Below, piece by piece: positions 7,032 to 44,181 of a stretch of DNA of 64,000 bases. Positions within the stretch are counted from its first letter, which is position 1. The number at the start of each line of letters is the position of its first letter. Position numbers and translations under genes: made by a program. Source of the stretch: Bifidobacterium ruminantium DSM 6489 (GTDB lineage Bacteria > Actinomycetota > Actinomycetes > Actinomycetales > Bifidobacteriaceae); NCBI RefSeq assembly GCF_000770925.1, contig NZ_JDTK01000008.1, forward strand, positions 1 to 64,000, written 5' to 3'. A model generated the notes under the pieces. The model made no database searches and was not told the DNA's origin. It worked only from the letters and a program-made list of their open reading frames with translations.

Positions 7032-8699
7032 ATGACGAATAAAGAGAACGCTTCCCGATCAGTGAAAGGTGTTCCGGTGAATCCGTCCAGGGATGTTGTT
7101 GACACATCTTGGGATATTCCTCCGTTGTCCTTCCCAGGCTCGGAACCGATTCCGAAGGAATTCTATGAAGATTCCGCGGAAGGCGTTTCCTCCAGTTCCA
7201 CCCCTCTGGTATCGATTCCGGAGCTTACGGATATTCCGTACGTTCCGGTTGAGAATCTATCTTTTGATGCTCCGGAAACCACGGAATCGCCCGATACGCA
7301 GGGCACGATGGTGCAGAACGGAACGGCACCATCCGATGCACCCGAAGAGACGCAGGTGGTCACGCAGACTTTGCCCCTGAACGCCGGAACTCTAACCGAT
7401 GATGCTCAGGGTATGTCTGCGAGTGACGCCGATGCGTTGACTCAAGTGCTTGATTCCGCGGTCGAGCCTTCAACTGAAATAGAAGATCTTGAACAGCTGG
7501 CTGAGGAAGATCCGGAGCATGATCCACTGAAAACCGTTCCTGCTCAGCCGAAGAAAGAGCCTTCCTCGAAGAGCAAGCATACTGCCCTCGCCATTATCGC
7601 CGCGGTCGCGGCTGCTGTGATTGCCGTTACCAGCATTCTTGTGGTGCGCAACAAAATCGATACCAAAGAGAAGCGTGCCGCGGTCTCCGTTTGCCAAAAG
7701 GCGAAGGATAGATATTTCGACGCCAGCAAGAAACTGCAGGATACCGTCAAACAGGCGGCTGATCTGCAGAAAACCGCATCAAATCAGGTAGCGGATGCAA
7801 CTACCATTGAGCGGCTGAATAAGGCTATCAACAAGGCTCAGAATCTCGAAGCCGCCAGTGATTGCTCGGTATTCCAATCCGAAACCGCACTGCGCACGCA
7901 TGCCCGTAATATGAGCAAGCAAGTCGGAGCTATCAAGAAACAGACCAAGGCCGTCACGACTGCGGCTACGGCTGTCGCGTCCAGCAAGAAAGCCCTGAGT
8001 GTGACCAAGACGACCGTTTCATTGCAGAAAGCCATTGCCGATGCTCGGACATTGCTTGCCAATTCCGAGGGAGCGGTTGCGGATGAGTCGACGCGTGACG
8101 CGCTTGCCAAGGCCATCGATGCGGCCCAGAAGCTCATCGATGGTAAGAGCACCGATATCACTGCCATGCAGAACGCGTCGAAGACGCTTTCCTCGTCCTC
8201 TGACGCGGTGAACCAGTCGGTGAACGAGCAGGCTGCGGCCAATGCCCAAGCGAATGCGAATTCCAATTCTGACTCCAACCTGAATACTGATACTGGAACC
8301 ACAAAACAGCCTGATTATTCGTACACGGGGCAGCCGGAATCTGGTGCTGGCCCGGGTGGTAATAACCCGAATGGCGGTAGCCAGGGTGGCGGCAATGGCG
8401 ATGGTGGTGCCAACCAAGGTGGTAATAACCCGAATGGCGGTAGCCAGGGTGGCGGCAATGGCGATGGTGGTGCCAACCAAGGTGGTAATAACCCGAATGG
8501 CGGTAGCCAGGGTGGCGGCAATGGCGATGGTGGTGCCAACCAAGGTGGTAATAACCCGAATGGCGGTAGCCAGGGTGGCGGCAATGGCGATGGTGGTGCC
8601 AACCAAGGTGGTAATAACCCGAATGGCGGTAGCCAGGGTGGCGGCAATGGCGATGGTGGTGCCAACCAAGGTGATAACAGTGACACTGGTGGTAACTAG
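7032..8699 (+). CDS. Membrane-anchored surface protein with Gly/Asn-rich tandem repeats
   Basis: 555 residues. ATG 7032 follows GAGGGG at good spacing; a TTG 12 nt upstream is less likely. The acidic N-terminal 180 residues should be cytoplasmic. One membrane segment lies at about 185-207 (ALAIIAAVAAAVIAVTSILVV). The external part is helical, Ala/Lys-rich and FIVAR-like (LAKAIDAAQKLIDGKS). The C-terminus consists of five identical 21-residue repeats (GGNNPNGGSQGGG, then NGDGGANQ). It lies between the BY-kinase (29 nt gap) and the priming transferase, so a role in polysaccharide assembly or wall attachment is plausible but unproven. No sortase motif is seen. I do not recognise a characterised homologue. 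Confidence 0.85.
   Translation: MTNKENASRSVKGVPVNPSRDVVDTSWDIPPLSFPGSEPIPKEFYEDSAEGVSSSSTPLVSIPELTDIPYVPVENLSFDAPETTESPDTQGTMVQNGTAPSDAPEETQVVTQTLPLNAGTLTDDAQGMSASDADALTQVLDSAVEPSTEIEDLEQLAEEDPEHDPLKTVPAQPKKEPSSKSKHTALAIIAAVAAAVIAVTSILVVRNKIDTKEKRAAVSVCQKAKDRYFDASKKLQDTVKQAADLQKTASNQVADATTIERLNKAINKAQNLEAASDCSVFQSETALRTHARNMSKQVGAIKKQTKAVTTAATAVASSKKALSVTKTTVSLQKAIADARTLLANSEGAVADESTRDALAKAIDAAQKLIDGKSTDITAMQNASKTLSSSSDAVNQSVNEQAAANAQANANSNSDSNLNTDTGTTKQPDYSYTGQPESGAGPGGNNPNGGSQGGGNGDGGANQGGNNPNGGSQGGGNGDGGANQGGNNPNGGSQGGGNGDGGANQGGNNPNGGSQGGGNGDGGANQGGNNPNGGSQGGGNGDGGANQGDNSDTGGN
8355..8669 (+). repeat. Five identical 63-bp tandem repeats (in-frame VNTR)
   Basis: Five head-to-tail copies of a 63-bp unit beginning GGTGGTAATAACCCG, each encoding 21 residues. 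All copies read identically, including third positions, which implies recent expansion or ongoing homogenisation. Unit gain or loss would keep the frame. Confidence 0.95.
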
Positions 8700-40628: not shown

Positions 40629-42038
40629 ATGTTCGTAGGACGAGAACACGAGCTTAACGTGATGCGCCGGCTGTATGAACGTCGTGGTTTTGAAATGGTC
40701 GTACTATACGGACGCCGGCGAATAGGCAAAACCTCCCTTATCGAGGAATTCGCAAAAGATAAGCGAGTCCTGTTCTTTACGGCATTGCAACAAAGCGATC
40801 TGCTGAACCTGCGTGGATTCTCCGCGGCCATAGCCGAATTCTACGGGCAGCCTTCGGAAATGCCGCCCTTTGCCACATGGCAACAAGCCTTTGGCTACAT
40901 AGCCAAGCGAGAACAGGAATCCAGCACGCCGATGATATTGGTATTCGACGAGTTTCCTTATGCGGCACTCGCCAACACCTCCCTTCCTTCGGCTCTGCAA
41001 ATCGCCATCGACCATGATCTCAAGCGGACCAATGTGATGCTGGTTCTTTCCGGCAGCAATGAAGGATTCATGGAAAGCAAAGTGCTCGGCGCGAAGAGCC
41101 CGCTGTTTGGCAGACGCACCGCACAGATTCGCCTGCAACCCTTCAGCTATCTGGATGTTGCGAAATTCCTGCCGAACACCCCGCCGGTTGAGCAGGTAGA
41201 CTATTACGCCACCTTCGGTGGCACACCGTATTACCTGAGTCAGCTCGACGAATCGGCCGGCTATCAGTCCAACGTCATCAACCTCTGCTTCGACAAGCTC
41301 GGCACGCTGTATGAGGAGCCGATGATGCTGTTACGTGAAGAGTTGCGCGAGCCGGCCATCTATTTTTCTGTGATGCAGGCCATCGCAAACGGCGAATCGA
41401 CGCCCAAGGCGATCGCGGAGCATTCCGGAGTCGAGCATGGCAACATCAACCTGTACCTGCAAACACTCAACAATCTCGGCCTTGTCGAAAAGCGAGTGCC
41501 GTTCGGCGAAAAACCGGAACGCTCGCGCCGCGGCATGTACACCATCAAAGACCCCTTCTTCGCATACTGGTTCCGCTTCGTGGGGCCCAACATGGGCGCC
41601 GTGGAACAGAATGCGGGCAGTATCGCCGCACATAGGTTGGCTCTCGGCGAAGCGTTCGCTACCTATGTAGGCCAGCAATTCGAAACGATCTGCGCCCAAT
41701 GGCTGGCCTATGTCAACGCCGCCGGAAAGCTTCCGTTCCTCGCCACTTCCTTCGGGAAATGGTGGGGGACCAACCCAACGAAACACGAACAGACTGACAT
41801 CGACGTGATCGCGGCCGACGCCTCATCGAAGACCATACTGCTTGGCGAGTGCAAATGGCGCAACAATCTTGACGAGACCGAGACCATCGAGGCTTTACGT
41901 GACCGTGTCGGATTAGTTCGAGGATTCGCCACCACTCATCTGGCGGTATTCACCAAAAAACCTTTGAGCAAAGCCACACGAGCGAAATATCCCGAACTCA
42001 TCGCCGAATCGGTAGACGATTTGTATAGTGCGTTGTAA
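40629..42038 (+). CDS. Archaeal-type ATPase with DUF234 nuclease-like C-terminus
   Basis: 469 residues. MFVGREHELNVMRRLYERRG and Walker A YGRRRIGKTSLIEEF (about 27-41) identify the ATPase_2 group common in Archaea. Walker B is MILVFDEFPYA (about 105-115), followed by LSGSNEGFM. A winged helix (about 255-300) and the DUF234 domain (about 310-440) follow, with EQTDIDVIAADASSKTILLGECKW, a PD-(D/E)XK-like Asp...Glu-x-Lys pattern. Architecture parallels the DUF4143 protein at 35283, though the families differ. Function is unknown. AGGGG lies about 7 nt before the ATG. Confidence 0.88.
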   Translation: MFVGREHELNVMRRLYERRGFEMVVLYGRRRIGKTSLIEEFAKDKRVLFFTALQQSDLLNLRGFSAAIAEFYGQPSEMPPFATWQQAFGYIAKREQESSTPMILVFDEFPYAALANTSLPSALQIAIDHDLKRTNVMLVLSGSNEGFMESKVLGAKSPLFGRRTAQIRLQPFSYLDVAKFLPNTPPVEQVDYYATFGGTPYYLSQLDESAGYQSNVINLCFDKLGTLYEEPMMLLREELREPAIYFSVMQAIANGESTPKAIAEHSGVEHGNINLYLQTLNNLGLVEKRVPFGEKPERSRRGMYTIKDPFFAYWFRFVGPNMGAVEQNAGSIAAHRLALGEAFATYVGQQFETICAQWLAYVNAAGKLPFLATSFGKWWGTNPTKHEQTDIDVIAADASSKTILLGECKWRNNLDETETIEALRDRVGLVRGFATTHLAVFTKKPLSKATRAKYPELIAESVDDLYSAL

Positions 42039-42103
42039 ATCCTATTCAGCAGCATGCATTTGTCCGTTTCCGGTTCATCTGGCGGATCTATTGCCCTGTC
42101 CAA

Positions 42104-42234
42104 GTCATAACCATCCGGATACCATGTCATAACCCATCCGGATAGGCGAGATAGAAGTCTAGATATGGTGCAATGGCTGAAAACAATAATCGCGGTGAAA
42201 GTGACGAATGATGCTACTTTCACCGCGATTGTTG
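42104..42234. repeat. Tandem 18-bp repeat and terminator hairpin after the ATPase gene
   Basis: GTCATAACC-ATCCGGATA occurs twice (42104-42121 and 42126-42144, one extra C in the second). A 19-bp stem (42184-42202 with 42216-42234, one G-U pair) follows and probably ends transcription of the ATPase gene. Confidence 0.6.
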
Positions 42235-42270
42235 AGAGGTGTTGGGAGGTTGCGTTAGAGCTTTTCTCCT

Positions 42271-42512
42271 CACGCCCCGGTTGCAATTATGGACGAGCCT
42301 TGCGGCTCGCCTGTATTGCTTCCTCGCTCGGCACTGTCGTGCCTCGCTCGGCGGGGCTACTTGGAAGCGCACTGCGCTTCCAAGTCACGCCCCGGGAAGT
42401 AGGGATTGTGGATCGGCCTTTGGCCGGGCCGTCATGTTTCCTCGCTCAGGCCTGTCGGCCTTCGCTCGGCGGGGCTACTTGGAAGCGCACTGCGCTTCCA
42501 AGTCACGCCCCG
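42271..42512. repeat. Two tandem copies of a hairpin-rich 115-118 bp repeat
   Basis: CACGCCCCG occurs at 42271, 42386 and 42504 and bounds two units. Each unit has three hairpins in the same order: a GC stem (GAGCC-TTGC-GGCTC or CGGCC-TTT-GGCCG), a stem with loop TGTC (GGCAC/GTGCC or AGGCC/GGCCT), and the identical stem ACTTGGAAGCG-CACTG-CGCTTCCAAGT enclosed by GGGGC/GCCCC. The stems of the first two hairpins differ between copies but stay paired. The last unit supplies the stop codon of the minus-strand methyltransferase gene. Confidence 0.8.
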
Positions 42513-43186
42513 CCAGCAAATCCCAGTTGGCGCCAGGCTTCGTAGATGGCGATGGAGGCGCAGTTAGTAAGATTCAGGCTGCGCAGGCTCGGGCGCATCG
42601 GCAGACGCACCTGCTCGGCCACGTATGGACCGGCCATGATGTCCATCGGATCGGGGATATTGCCCGGTTCCGGGCCGAACAGCAGAATGTCGGTCGGCCT
42701 GTATTCGATGTCGGTGTACAGCTTGGTGGCGTGCGCGGTGAATGCGATGATGCGCGAATCGGGCATCGATTCCACCAGATCCTCGAAATTCGGGTGCAGC
42801 ACCACATGCGCCATGTCATGGTAGTCGAGTCCCGCACGGCGCAGCTTGGTATCCCGCAGATTGAAACCCAAAGGTTCCACCAGGTGCAGAATCGTGCCGG
42901 TCACGGCGCACAGGCGGATCGCGGAACCCGTGTTGCCCGGAATACGCGGGGAGTAGTAGCACAGGTGCGGGGTGGAGGTCTCCGCCTTGGCCGCATCCTT
43001 CGCGCTCAGCATGGCGTCCACCACGGAAATCGGGTTGCCATGCGCGTCGGTCACCAGCTCGTCCGGGCCGTAATTGGACTTGCGGTACCCGTATTCGAAC
43101 ATCTTCTCGACCTTGGCCTCCGCCGCGGCGGTTTCGGCGTTCGGCGTTGCGCCCCGCGCGGTATCGGTATGCTCTTCATTCGTCAT
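42503..43186 (-). CDS. trmL: tRNA (cytidine(34)-2'-O)-methyltransferase TrmL-like (SpoU family)
   Basis: 227 residues from ATG 43186. After an N-terminal extension of about 70 residues unique to this subgroup, the SPOUT domain shows RIPGNTGSAIRLCAVTGT (motif 1), DILLFGPEPGNIPD (motif 2) and SLNLTNCASIAIYEAWRQLGF (motif 3, knot). TrmL methylates the wobble base of tRNA-Leu. The final codons and TGA lie inside the hairpin repeat at 42504. The start codon is only 20 bp from the divergent mutY start, and the longer frame to 43432 overlaps mutY and is rejected. Confidence 0.88.
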   Translation of the reverse strand: MTNEEHTDTARGATPNAETAAAEAKVEKMFEYGYRKSNYGPDELVTDAHGNPISVVDAMLSAKDAAKAETSTPHLCYYSPRIPGNTGSAIRLCAVTGTILHLVEPLGFNLRDTKLRRAGLDYHDMAHVVLHPNFEDLVESMPDSRIIAFTAHATKLYTDIEYRPTDILLFGPEPGNIPDPMDIMAGPYVAEQVRLPMRPSLRSLNLTNCASIAIYEAWRQLGFAGGA

Positions 43187-43206
43187 AAATGCTAAGAATA
43201 GGAACG

Positions 43207-44181
43207 ATGAACGACACGAACACCATGCATGCGGCCCTGCGCGGCAACGCCACGACAATCGCCATTGAAACCGATGCCGACGAAATCGAAACGGCGCTCG
43301 CACAATGGTGGCACGACAATACGCGCGACCTGCCATGGCGATTCGGCCGCACCACACCGTGGGGCGTGCTCGTCTCCGAAGTGATGAGCCAGCAGACGCA
43401 GATGGGCCGTGTCGTGCCGTACTGGACGGCATGGATGGAACGGTGGCCGGACGCGGCCGCGCTCGCCGAAGCTCCCAAATCCGATGTGATCACCGCGTGG
43501 GGCAGGCTTGGTTATCCAAGACGGGCATTGCGATTGCGCGAATGCGCCCATGTCGTCGCATGCGATTACGCCGACGAGCTGCCGCGTACCTATGACGAAT
43601 TATTGGCATTGCCTGGCATCGGCGATTACACGGCCAGCGCGGTGCTGTCGTTCGCTTTCGGCGAACGTATCGCGGTTATCGACACGAATATCCGTCGTGT
43701 GCTGTCGCGCGCGTTCGTCGGCGTCGAATCGTTCGGCGGAGCGGCAAGCCCGGCGGAACGCGCGCTGGCGAAACGGCTGCTGCCGGACGATGGCTTCGCG
43801 AAATGCCGTCGATTCGATCGGCCTTCCGTCGTATGGAACCAATCCGTGATGGAACTCGGCGCGACCGTGTGCACCGCGAAATCGCCGTTATGCGACGCCT
43901 GTCCGATTGCGGCGCAATGCGCGTTCCTGCGCAACGGAAGGCCAGGATTGGGGGAGCGGCGCACACGTCCCCGCCAACGGTTCCAGGGAACGGATCGTCA
44001 GGTGCGCGGACTGGTGCTGAACGCGTTGCGCGGATTACCGGACGGCGAGACGACGCTTGATCGCGGAAGCGTCGAAAAGCTCTGGAAGGATCATGTGCAG
44101 CTCGACAAATGCATCGCGTCGCTTGACGAGGACGGGCTTATCGAAATCCTGCCCGGAGGAGGCGTGCGGCTTCCTGACTGA
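43207..44181 (+). CDS. mutY: A/G-specific adenine glycosylase
   Basis: 325 residues. It shows LPWRFGRTTPWGVLVSEVMSQQTQ with the catalytic Glu, the helix-hairpin-helix LPGIGDYTASAVLSFAFG, catalytic Asp in VIDTNIRRV, and a [4Fe-4S] site C-x6-C-x2-C-x5-C (CTAKSPLCDACPIAAQC). It removes A opposite 8-oxoG. The C-terminal MutT-like domain of E. coli MutY is short or absent, as in several Actinobacteria. ATG 43207 is preceded by AGGA close to the start; an ATG at 43189 in frame is less likely because it would overlap the divergent gene's control region. Confidence 0.93.
   Translation: MNDTNTMHAALRGNATTIAIETDADEIETALAQWWHDNTRDLPWRFGRTTPWGVLVSEVMSQQTQMGRVVPYWTAWMERWPDAAALAEAPKSDVITAWGRLGYPRRALRLRECAHVVACDYADELPRTYDELLALPGIGDYTASAVLSFAFGERIAVIDTNIRRVLSRAFVGVESFGGAASPAERALAKRLLPDDGFAKCRRFDRPSVVWNQSVMELGATVCTAKSPLCDACPIAAQCAFLRNGRPGLGERRTRPRQRFQGTDRQVRGLVLNALRGLPDGETTLDRGSVEKLWKDHVQLDKCIASLDEDGLIEILPGGGVRLPD

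Follow-up and report, generated by a model that had tools for sequence, protein, structure and literature searches.

What is the hairpin-rich tandem repeat that closes the trmL gene of Bifidobacterium ruminantium DSM 6489, how did it come to the end of a gene, and what keeps its stems paired? The repeat lies in a stretch of 64,000 nucleotides (contig NZ_JDTK01000008.1, positions 1 to 64,000), which we call the window. L and G numbers are our handles for loci and genomes.

Organization of the array behind trmL

The array occupies about 42270-42515 and is sensibly read on the minus strand, the sense strand of trmL. As the first-pass annotation had described, it consists of two tandem units of ~115 nt with three hairpins each (Table 1). 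The units are spaced by 118 bp and are 86% identical over 91 nt. On the trmL strand the order is P1 5' arm, GTGA with the stop codon, P2, P1 3' arm, GAGCGA, P4 (loop GACA), GAGCGAGG, P5 and the tail ATAATTGCA, which is intact in unit 2 and degenerate in unit 1, where it reads CCACAATCCC. The P2 hairpin of 27 nt, a perfect 12-bp stem with a three-base loop, has the same sequence in both units. The P4 stems differ in both arms, with pairing and loop kept (in plus-strand letters GGCAC-TGTC-GTGCC in unit 2 vs AGGCC-TGTC-GGCCT in unit 1), just as had been noticed earlier. The 8-bp stem outside P2 (GGCGGGGC/GCCCCGCC) is formed by the last trmL codons paired with a downstream arm. The trmL stop codon does belong to the element, as proposed; it lies in the gene-proximal unit. 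The window has two occurrences of the hairpin-with-flanks pattern and 100 shuffles have none, and the folding energy of 42270-42514 on the minus strand is -146.5 kcal/mol (z -11.2 vs shuffles).

Beyond the array is a separate inverted repeat, a candidate trmL terminator. It is absent from the consensus terminator scan of 42050-42560, which gave one site, on the plus strand and antisense to trmL, with 0.4 expected. A similar hairpin is found behind the unit also in L011 and L012. Two further repeats of the window are a 23-bp direct repeat present twice at 42100-42144, with CATCCGGATA, between the ATPase/DUF234 gene and the hairpin element, and a 63-bp tandem repeat at 8355-8677 with 5.1 nearly perfect copies.

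Table 1. Features of the trmL array and its surroundings (window coordinates)
Feature	Positions	Strand	Basis
Host gene, SpoU/TrmL-type RNA methyltransferase (PF00588); ORF 42503-43432	42503..43186	-	profile match
Unit 1, gene-proximal	42399..42515	-	R1 match, 48 bits
P1 5' arm, unit 1 (GGCGGGGC); final trmL coding bases, Gly-Gly-Ala region	42507..42514	-	sequence; P1 pairing in 8-unit trmL alignment
trmL stop codon TGA between P1 5' arm and P2; its A is P2 base 1	42503..42505	-	ORF call, SpoU methylase
P2 hairpin, unit 1 (ACTTGGAAGCGC-AGT-GCGCTTCCAAGT)	42477..42503	-	sequence
P1 3' arm, unit 1 (GCCCCGCC), complementary to trmL end	42468..42475	-	sequence, alignment
P4 hairpin, unit 1 (AGGCC-GACA-GGCCT); flanks GAGCGA / GAGCGAGG, GA/GA inside outer GC/GC pair	42448..42461	-	sequence
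P5 hairpin, unit 1 (CGGCC-AAA-GGCCG)	42414..42426	-	sequence
Unit 2	42280..42394	-	R1 match, 67 bits
P2 hairpin, unit 2; same as unit 1 P2	42359..42385	-	sequence
P4 hairpin, unit 2 (GGCAC-GACA-GTGCC); other stem, loop as unit 1	42330..42343	-	sequence
P5 hairpin, unit 2 (CGAGCC-GCAA-GGCTCG), then TCCATAATTGCA	42294..42309	-	sequence
Third-unit remnant, 10 nt, closing array; direct repeat of gene end (CGGGGCGTGA)	42270..42279	-	sequence, repeat search
Separate 19-bp inverted repeat (95%) beyond array; T-rich stretch after it on minus strand	42184..42234	.	repeat search

A family of dispersed units in Bifidobacteriaceae

BLAST of the own genome returns the window locus as the only full copy, with two other matches of 14 nt (E 2.9), and an exact 23-mer scan of the genome contigs gives 0 occurrences, presumably because the stems vary. 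With the window element as query, BLAST has hits in 19 of 112 genus genomes, a figure that counts the own genome. The pattern of P5 plus tail occurs at 39 places in 21 of the 112 genomes, with 0 for the reversed control, and ten units from this search made the seed of a covariance model, R1.

With R1 the further copies that the first-pass annotation had proposed to look for prove to be many. At E 0.01 it matches 95 of 112 genus genomes, 25 of them with at least 30 matches; about 33 candidates were scored per genome, hence the match counts per genome are lower bounds. Family-wide, 111 of 189 Bifidobacteriaceae genomes are matched (16/77 outside the genus), and the control, 118 other genomes across the phylum, gives one matched genome, at 36 bits. 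The own genome has 12 matches, the top two of which reach 75 and 72 bits vs 67 and 48 for the window units. On the complete G015 chromosome (2.27 Mb) R1 finds 27, with scores of at least 45 bits for 11; among weak matches, those under about 40 bits, there may be hairpins unrelated to the family.

Rfam 15 gives seven matches up to E 5 in 41800-43000, all far under the gathering score; those overlapping the element are mir-3180 (20.6 of 99 bits) and GlsR24 (13.9 of 100). At 12 further element loci it returns only a tRNA and one match overlapping that tRNA. The window array is unmatched in the plasmid and phage collections, as is a tandem pair from L076 in the plasmid collection. We conclude that the dispersed ~115-nt three-hairpin units form a family of Bifidobacteriaceae, as far as searched.

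Other repeats were seen near some loci. L300 (G068), upstream of an lnpA relative, has a tandem array of three units from a variant subfamily whose outer arm differs (GACGTTGCCGTGAAG / GCAACGT). In L079 (G037) the permease-associated unit is followed by arrayed hairpin-like repeats from another family (ggaggccgtaactgagcgctatcc...). A separate hairpin repeat, CTCCCTCAGTC...GACAGCTCCC...CCGAGGGAG, occurs near genes in L016, L017, L024, L070, L091 and others.

Fold of the unit and covariation of its stems

A full unit consists of the nested P1 and P2, a GNNA-loop hairpin between GAGCGA motifs, and a GNA- or GNNA-loop hairpin ending with TAATTGCAGG. The last part of the host gene, stop codon included, is usually found within the outer 5' arm. 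Alignment A5 comprises 33 units outside the R1 seed, aligned by MAFFT without structure. In it 96.8% of 1053 cells are paired and 23 of 32 pairs show both-sided, compensatory change; 0 of 500 shuffles reach any of five measures, and slid structures leave 27-38% paired. The choice of A5 leans to structure because its units are among the best matches of R1; RNAalifold predicts 31 of the 32 pairs from the alignment alone. Hence, the covariance-model check proposed at the outset speaks for the kept pairing. Alignment A6 comprises eight trmL-associated units, both window units included, which were found by BLAST and not by R1. Here 91.5% of cells are paired and 11 of 33 pairs show both-sided change (equalled in 1/500 shuffles). 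Further pair types are no more numerous than in shuffles (404/500 reach the count).

The loops are conserved in A5: C-GNA-G in P5 (25/33), C-GNNA-G in P4 (31/33) and C-NGT-G in P2 (32/33). In the trmL set, tandem G.A/A.G mismatches replace Watson-Crick pairs of other units in P1 (L013) and P2 (L008, L010, L013), and by eye also in P4 (GAGCGA..GAGCG vs GAGCGG..CCGCG).

Is the pairing kept at the level of RNA? G-U makes up 14 of 986 standard pairs, with one constant G.U column left out, vs 59 of 1143 in the tRNA stems of G015, which is 3.6 times rarer (p 1e-6). In 173 terminator-like hairpins of G015, picked by folding energy, it makes up 235 of 2111 pairs (11% vs 1.4% in the element). A-C cells number six in A5 and four in A6, G-U cells 14 and four, and the excess of G-U over A-C (18:10) is not significant (p 0.18). 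The rarity of G-U means that the stems behave as constrained on both strands, or as repaired palindromes. It speaks against a purely RNA-level reading, making template switching the leading rival, and maintenance of the stems at the DNA level is possible. Template-switch correction of palindromes also yields paired changes, as set out in the consulted part of PMC8794818. Thus, the earlier claim that covariation means selection on structure stands as to the kept pairing and is too strong as to its cause. Selection is better argued from orientation, stop-codon position, and conserved loops and flanks.

Placement at stop codons

We examined the placement of units in 60 hand-chosen, high-scoring loci of 12 genomes, taken from the genus rows of R1; these loci are not independent, as several genes recur in related genomes. 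A codon-usage gene finder places a sense gene directly upstream in 50 loci and makes an antisense call in 10, three of which (L319, L342, L362) have a sense host by other analyses, including a cruder gene finder. The latter, used first, gave 39 sense, 14 antisense and seven none. Counted from the unit start, the host stop codon falls within -8 to +19 in 48 of the 60 loci; in 44 it is inside the unit. It is exactly at +6 (GGC-TGA) in 31 and at +14 in seven; a few +6 stops follow a codon other than GGC, for example those of L361 and L345. The gene that follows runs in the same direction in 47 of 60 loci, though its distance varies.

On the whole G015 chromosome a sense host is present for 22 of 27 matches (p 0.0015), and in 18 the stop codon is within -60 to +40; nine lie over 60 nt away from a sense stop or next to an antisense gene. 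In this genome 40 called genes end with GGC-TGA and 396 GGCTGA sites are outside called genes, the latter an overcount, as the finder's calls extend over 77% of the genome. Random use of the hexamer would therefore not be expected to put units at gene ends.

The units are dispersed over unrelated genes, and tandem units are arranged head-to-tail. By profile the hosts are ABC permeases (three examples) and, one each, a CNNM/CorC-type protein, melibiase, Hsp20, ThiD, LepA, GatB, IlvC and a class E sortase; an aspartate aminotransferase relative matches its profile below the cut-off. Many of these genes have no unit in G015, hence no single gene needs one.

Insertion into gene ends

In one gene family the unit has demonstrably, by comparison of coding ends, split a pre-existing coding end. 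CNNM/CorC-type hosts end inside the unit (VRKAAEA* in L352 and L344, VRKAAAA* in L366). At most 3 nt from the unit end follow codons for PDHAPVA* (L352), PDHAPVAEV* (L344) and PEHAPIAEA* (L366). In G015, where the gene has no unit, the protein ends KAGAPDHAPLPEEPQTDDAN* (..IEVRKAGAPDHAPLPEEPQTDDAN*). By eye, the old frame resumes in all three genomes if the unit is taken from after AAGGC up to TTGCC. The displaced C-terminal codons behind the unit argue that the element was inserted into this gene, which bears out the insertion at a gene end supposed at first pass. No clear target duplication is seen at these three loci.

We viewed 30 of 46 places at lnpA, the lacto-N-biose phosphorylase gene (PF09508 for L083), with a permease upstream in 26. 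Of these permease-lnpA junctions 17 have the unit by eye, one truncated, and all 17 end with GGC-TGA. The nine without it end with GGATAA (4), GGCTGA (4) and GGCTAA (1); the association of gene end with unit gives p 0.002, ignoring kinship. For trmL, 80 loci of named genomes were compared, the best among 241, and 10 of them have a P2-type hairpin just behind the stop codon. All 10 end with GCG-TRA vs 5 of the 70 without the hairpin (p 2e-9, ignoring kinship), and three of these five (L102, L115, L131) show a variant unit by eye.

Host tails differ from those of unit-free G015 orthologs: DWAK* vs EWTSR*/EWANR*, WLV* vs WLTR* and AWAGI* vs AWLGR*. We considered a W-x-x-R* tail as a mark of insertion and rejected it: L371 and L333 end VWLRR*, as does the unit-free G015 ortholog. 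The tail alone thus proves nothing, and the other tail differences are only suggestive. A clean target-site duplication was suspected from direct repeats of gene ends, which are frequent behind units but mostly resemble remnants of a further unit. Such repeats flank single units in L093 (15 nt) and L015 (11 nt) and could be target duplications.

Outer stem matched to the host gene

P1 also pairs with unusual host ends, GGGCAAACC/GGTTTGCCC in L323, GGCTAGGGC/GCCCTAGCC in L051, GGCTACGCC/GGCGTAGCC in L371 and GGCTGATCC/GGATCAGCC in L368. A perfect match to the host is not the rule everywhere: among 75 loci the exact P1 length is at least 9 in 34, at least 7 in 43 and shorter in 29, the shorter ones including some with GA/GA inside and some misparsed; in three loci no P2 was found. 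For the 31 usable units of A5 the mean match of a unit to its own arm is 8.2 of 9 positions, vs a maximum of 7.7 in 5000 permutations, with two common arm types making up 21 of the 31.

These matches allow a bolder reading, which we put forward tentatively and hold to be rather doubtful. The units might represent a novel class of mobile RNA/DNA element, with stop codons as insertion sites and a sequence fitted to the host. The P1 3' arm would complement the last host codons (GGCTGACGC, GGCTAGGCC, GGGCAAACC, GGCTACGCC, GGCTGATCC...) through pairing-guided insertion or fold-back copying, and the gene end with its stop codon would join a regulatory fold. An outer stem written or chosen to fit the host gene would, if true, be an unusual insertion mechanism.

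Comparison with known elements

Like REP/BIME (PU) sequences with their RAYT, the units are dispersed palindromes near gene ends, and the high copy number and dispersal of REPs are found here too, with the counts given above. Unlike them, the element is ~115 nt long (mostly 110-122 nt per full unit), has three hairpins, usually encloses a stop codon, often matches its outer stem to the host and is mostly in sense orientation. A REP is a short (~20-40 nt) imperfect palindrome with a GTAG-type 5' head (heads are listed in PMC2817692, from which we draw on an extract); full units have no such head. REPs are extragenic and alternating, while here the stop codon is mostly inside the unit and tandem units run head-to-tail; the opposite strand is also matched in L093 and L334, in both cases overlapping the main unit and apparently by cross-matching of the palindrome. 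The Y1 transposase (PF01797) of REP systems is found in 7 of 112 genus genomes vs 95 with R1 matches, so that the REP-associated transposase for which the first-pass annotation proposed a search does not follow the element. Of its REP/BIME-like assignment, the dispersed palindromic family holds and membership does not.

Integron attC sites are folded, lie at gene ends and conserve structure rather than sequence, and in this respect the element is like them. A common GTTAAGC box prompted the idea of attC, which we rejected: no RYYYAAC partner is visible by eye and no cassette arrangement was seen. With intrinsic terminators the element shares a GC-rich hairpin behind the stop codon; it differs in its three domains, its rare G-U pairs and the missing T-tract, P5 being followed by TAATTGCAGG. 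The malE-malF intercistronic structure of E. coli, which is a REP, is comparable: it too is stable and follows a transporter gene, within a sugar operon. That is, however, a single case of tested function, unlike the genus-wide mobile family with a putative function described here.

ERIC, RUP and Correia/NEMIS elements are similar in being ~100-150 bp long, non-autonomous, with long stem-loops and behind genes (PMC2229807, in part). They have terminal inverted repeats and target duplications, whereas here stems covary freely, the outer arm overlaps the host gene and no terminal repeats are seen beyond P1. The element would act like a REP or an ERIC yet does not qualify as a REP. The open-access literature searched holds no paper reporting this hairpin family, and bifidobacteria are absent from the main text of a 2025 REP survey (PMC12306157).

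Proposed mechanism and alternative explanations

We suggest that the array is probably a REP-like, non-autonomous, non-coding mobile element, retained as a structure of mRNA 3' ends or of intercistronic regions. Units would persist where insertion leaves a working stop codon. The co-transcribed fold would then act as a barrier at the mRNA 3' end or between cistrons, protecting the upstream message, often that of an ABC permease, from 3'-5' decay; in addition, or instead, it might pause transcription. This would uncouple the level of the upstream mRNA from that of the downstream gene, in the manner of the malE-malF structure, which protects malE mRNA from 3'-5' decay (PMC5927463, partial text). 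We base this explanation on the family specificity, the kept pairing, the stop-codon placement, the CNNM/CorC insertion, the intercistronic lnpA sites and the malE precedent. The effect on upstream mRNA may have either sign, given that ERIC alters the stability of upstream transcripts by destabilising them (PMC2229807, same portion). Among mobilising enzymes searched for in the 112 genus genomes, Y1 transposase was found in seven and reverse transcriptase in eight, and neither follows the element.

The stems may also be kept perfect by mutation, with template switching in replication (quasipalindrome correction) restoring the palindromes and slippage multiplying the units, without a selected function. 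The mechanism is laid out in the part of PMC8794818 cited above, and it would fit the few G-U intermediates, the joint change of adjacent pairs in A5 and the P2 shared by both window units. We nevertheless hold it to be unlikely, since it leaves unexplained the sense placement at stop codons, the dispersal to unrelated genes and the loops and unpaired flanks conserved over the genus (GAGCGA, GNNA loops, TAATTGCAGG). Another rival is a true REP/BIME family, moved by RAYT or another IS200/IS605-type Y1 transposase acting on single-stranded DNA hairpins. Palindromic units with few G-U pairs would suit such an enzyme, as would the CNNM/CorC-type insertion behind a short GGC-like sequence without clear target duplication, since IS200/IS605 members make no larger target duplications (PMC2817692, extract); moreover, the element-rich G016 carries three Y1 genes. 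Y1 is, however, rare in the genus, absent from the element-rich G003, G005, G048, G055 and G073 and present in G033 and G045, both without an R1 match, and the GTAG-like head is missing from units that form head-to-tail arrays. This origin is highly improbable. A single Y1 transposase gene is present in the own genome (PF01797; G000:C4:19490-19867, open frame of 163 aa).

The units might, finally, end transcription units as factor-dependent or hairpin-only terminators, or as RNA polymerase pause elements. Transcript ends of B. breve UCC2003 are often at GC-rich stem-loops that are not of the rho-independent class and have no clear consensus (PMC5746004, in excerpt). If stems covary, motif finders would fail to see a consensus. 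Against this reading, the hairpins have no T-tract, the next gene is mostly co-directional at varying distance, and trmL appears to have a separate terminator-like hairpin downstream. In addition, the permease-lnpA unit sits within what is presumably a single operon, as the two genes are usually taken to be. A role as terminator thus seems quite unlikely, and the mobile element kept as an mRNA structure is the explanation that we prefer.

Significance for bifidobacteria

Bifidobacteria thus harbour a widespread structured element that is likely to escape searches for sequence motifs, given the covariation of its stems. Some of the consensus-less "GC-rich stem-loop" transcript ends in B. breve (PMC5746004, in excerpt) could be copies of it. 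Some species have dozens of copies at gene ends, where the element may influence mRNA lifetime. In sugar-transport clusters, including the junction before lacto-N-biose phosphorylase, an enzyme of human-milk sugar, it may set the ratio of transporter to enzyme.
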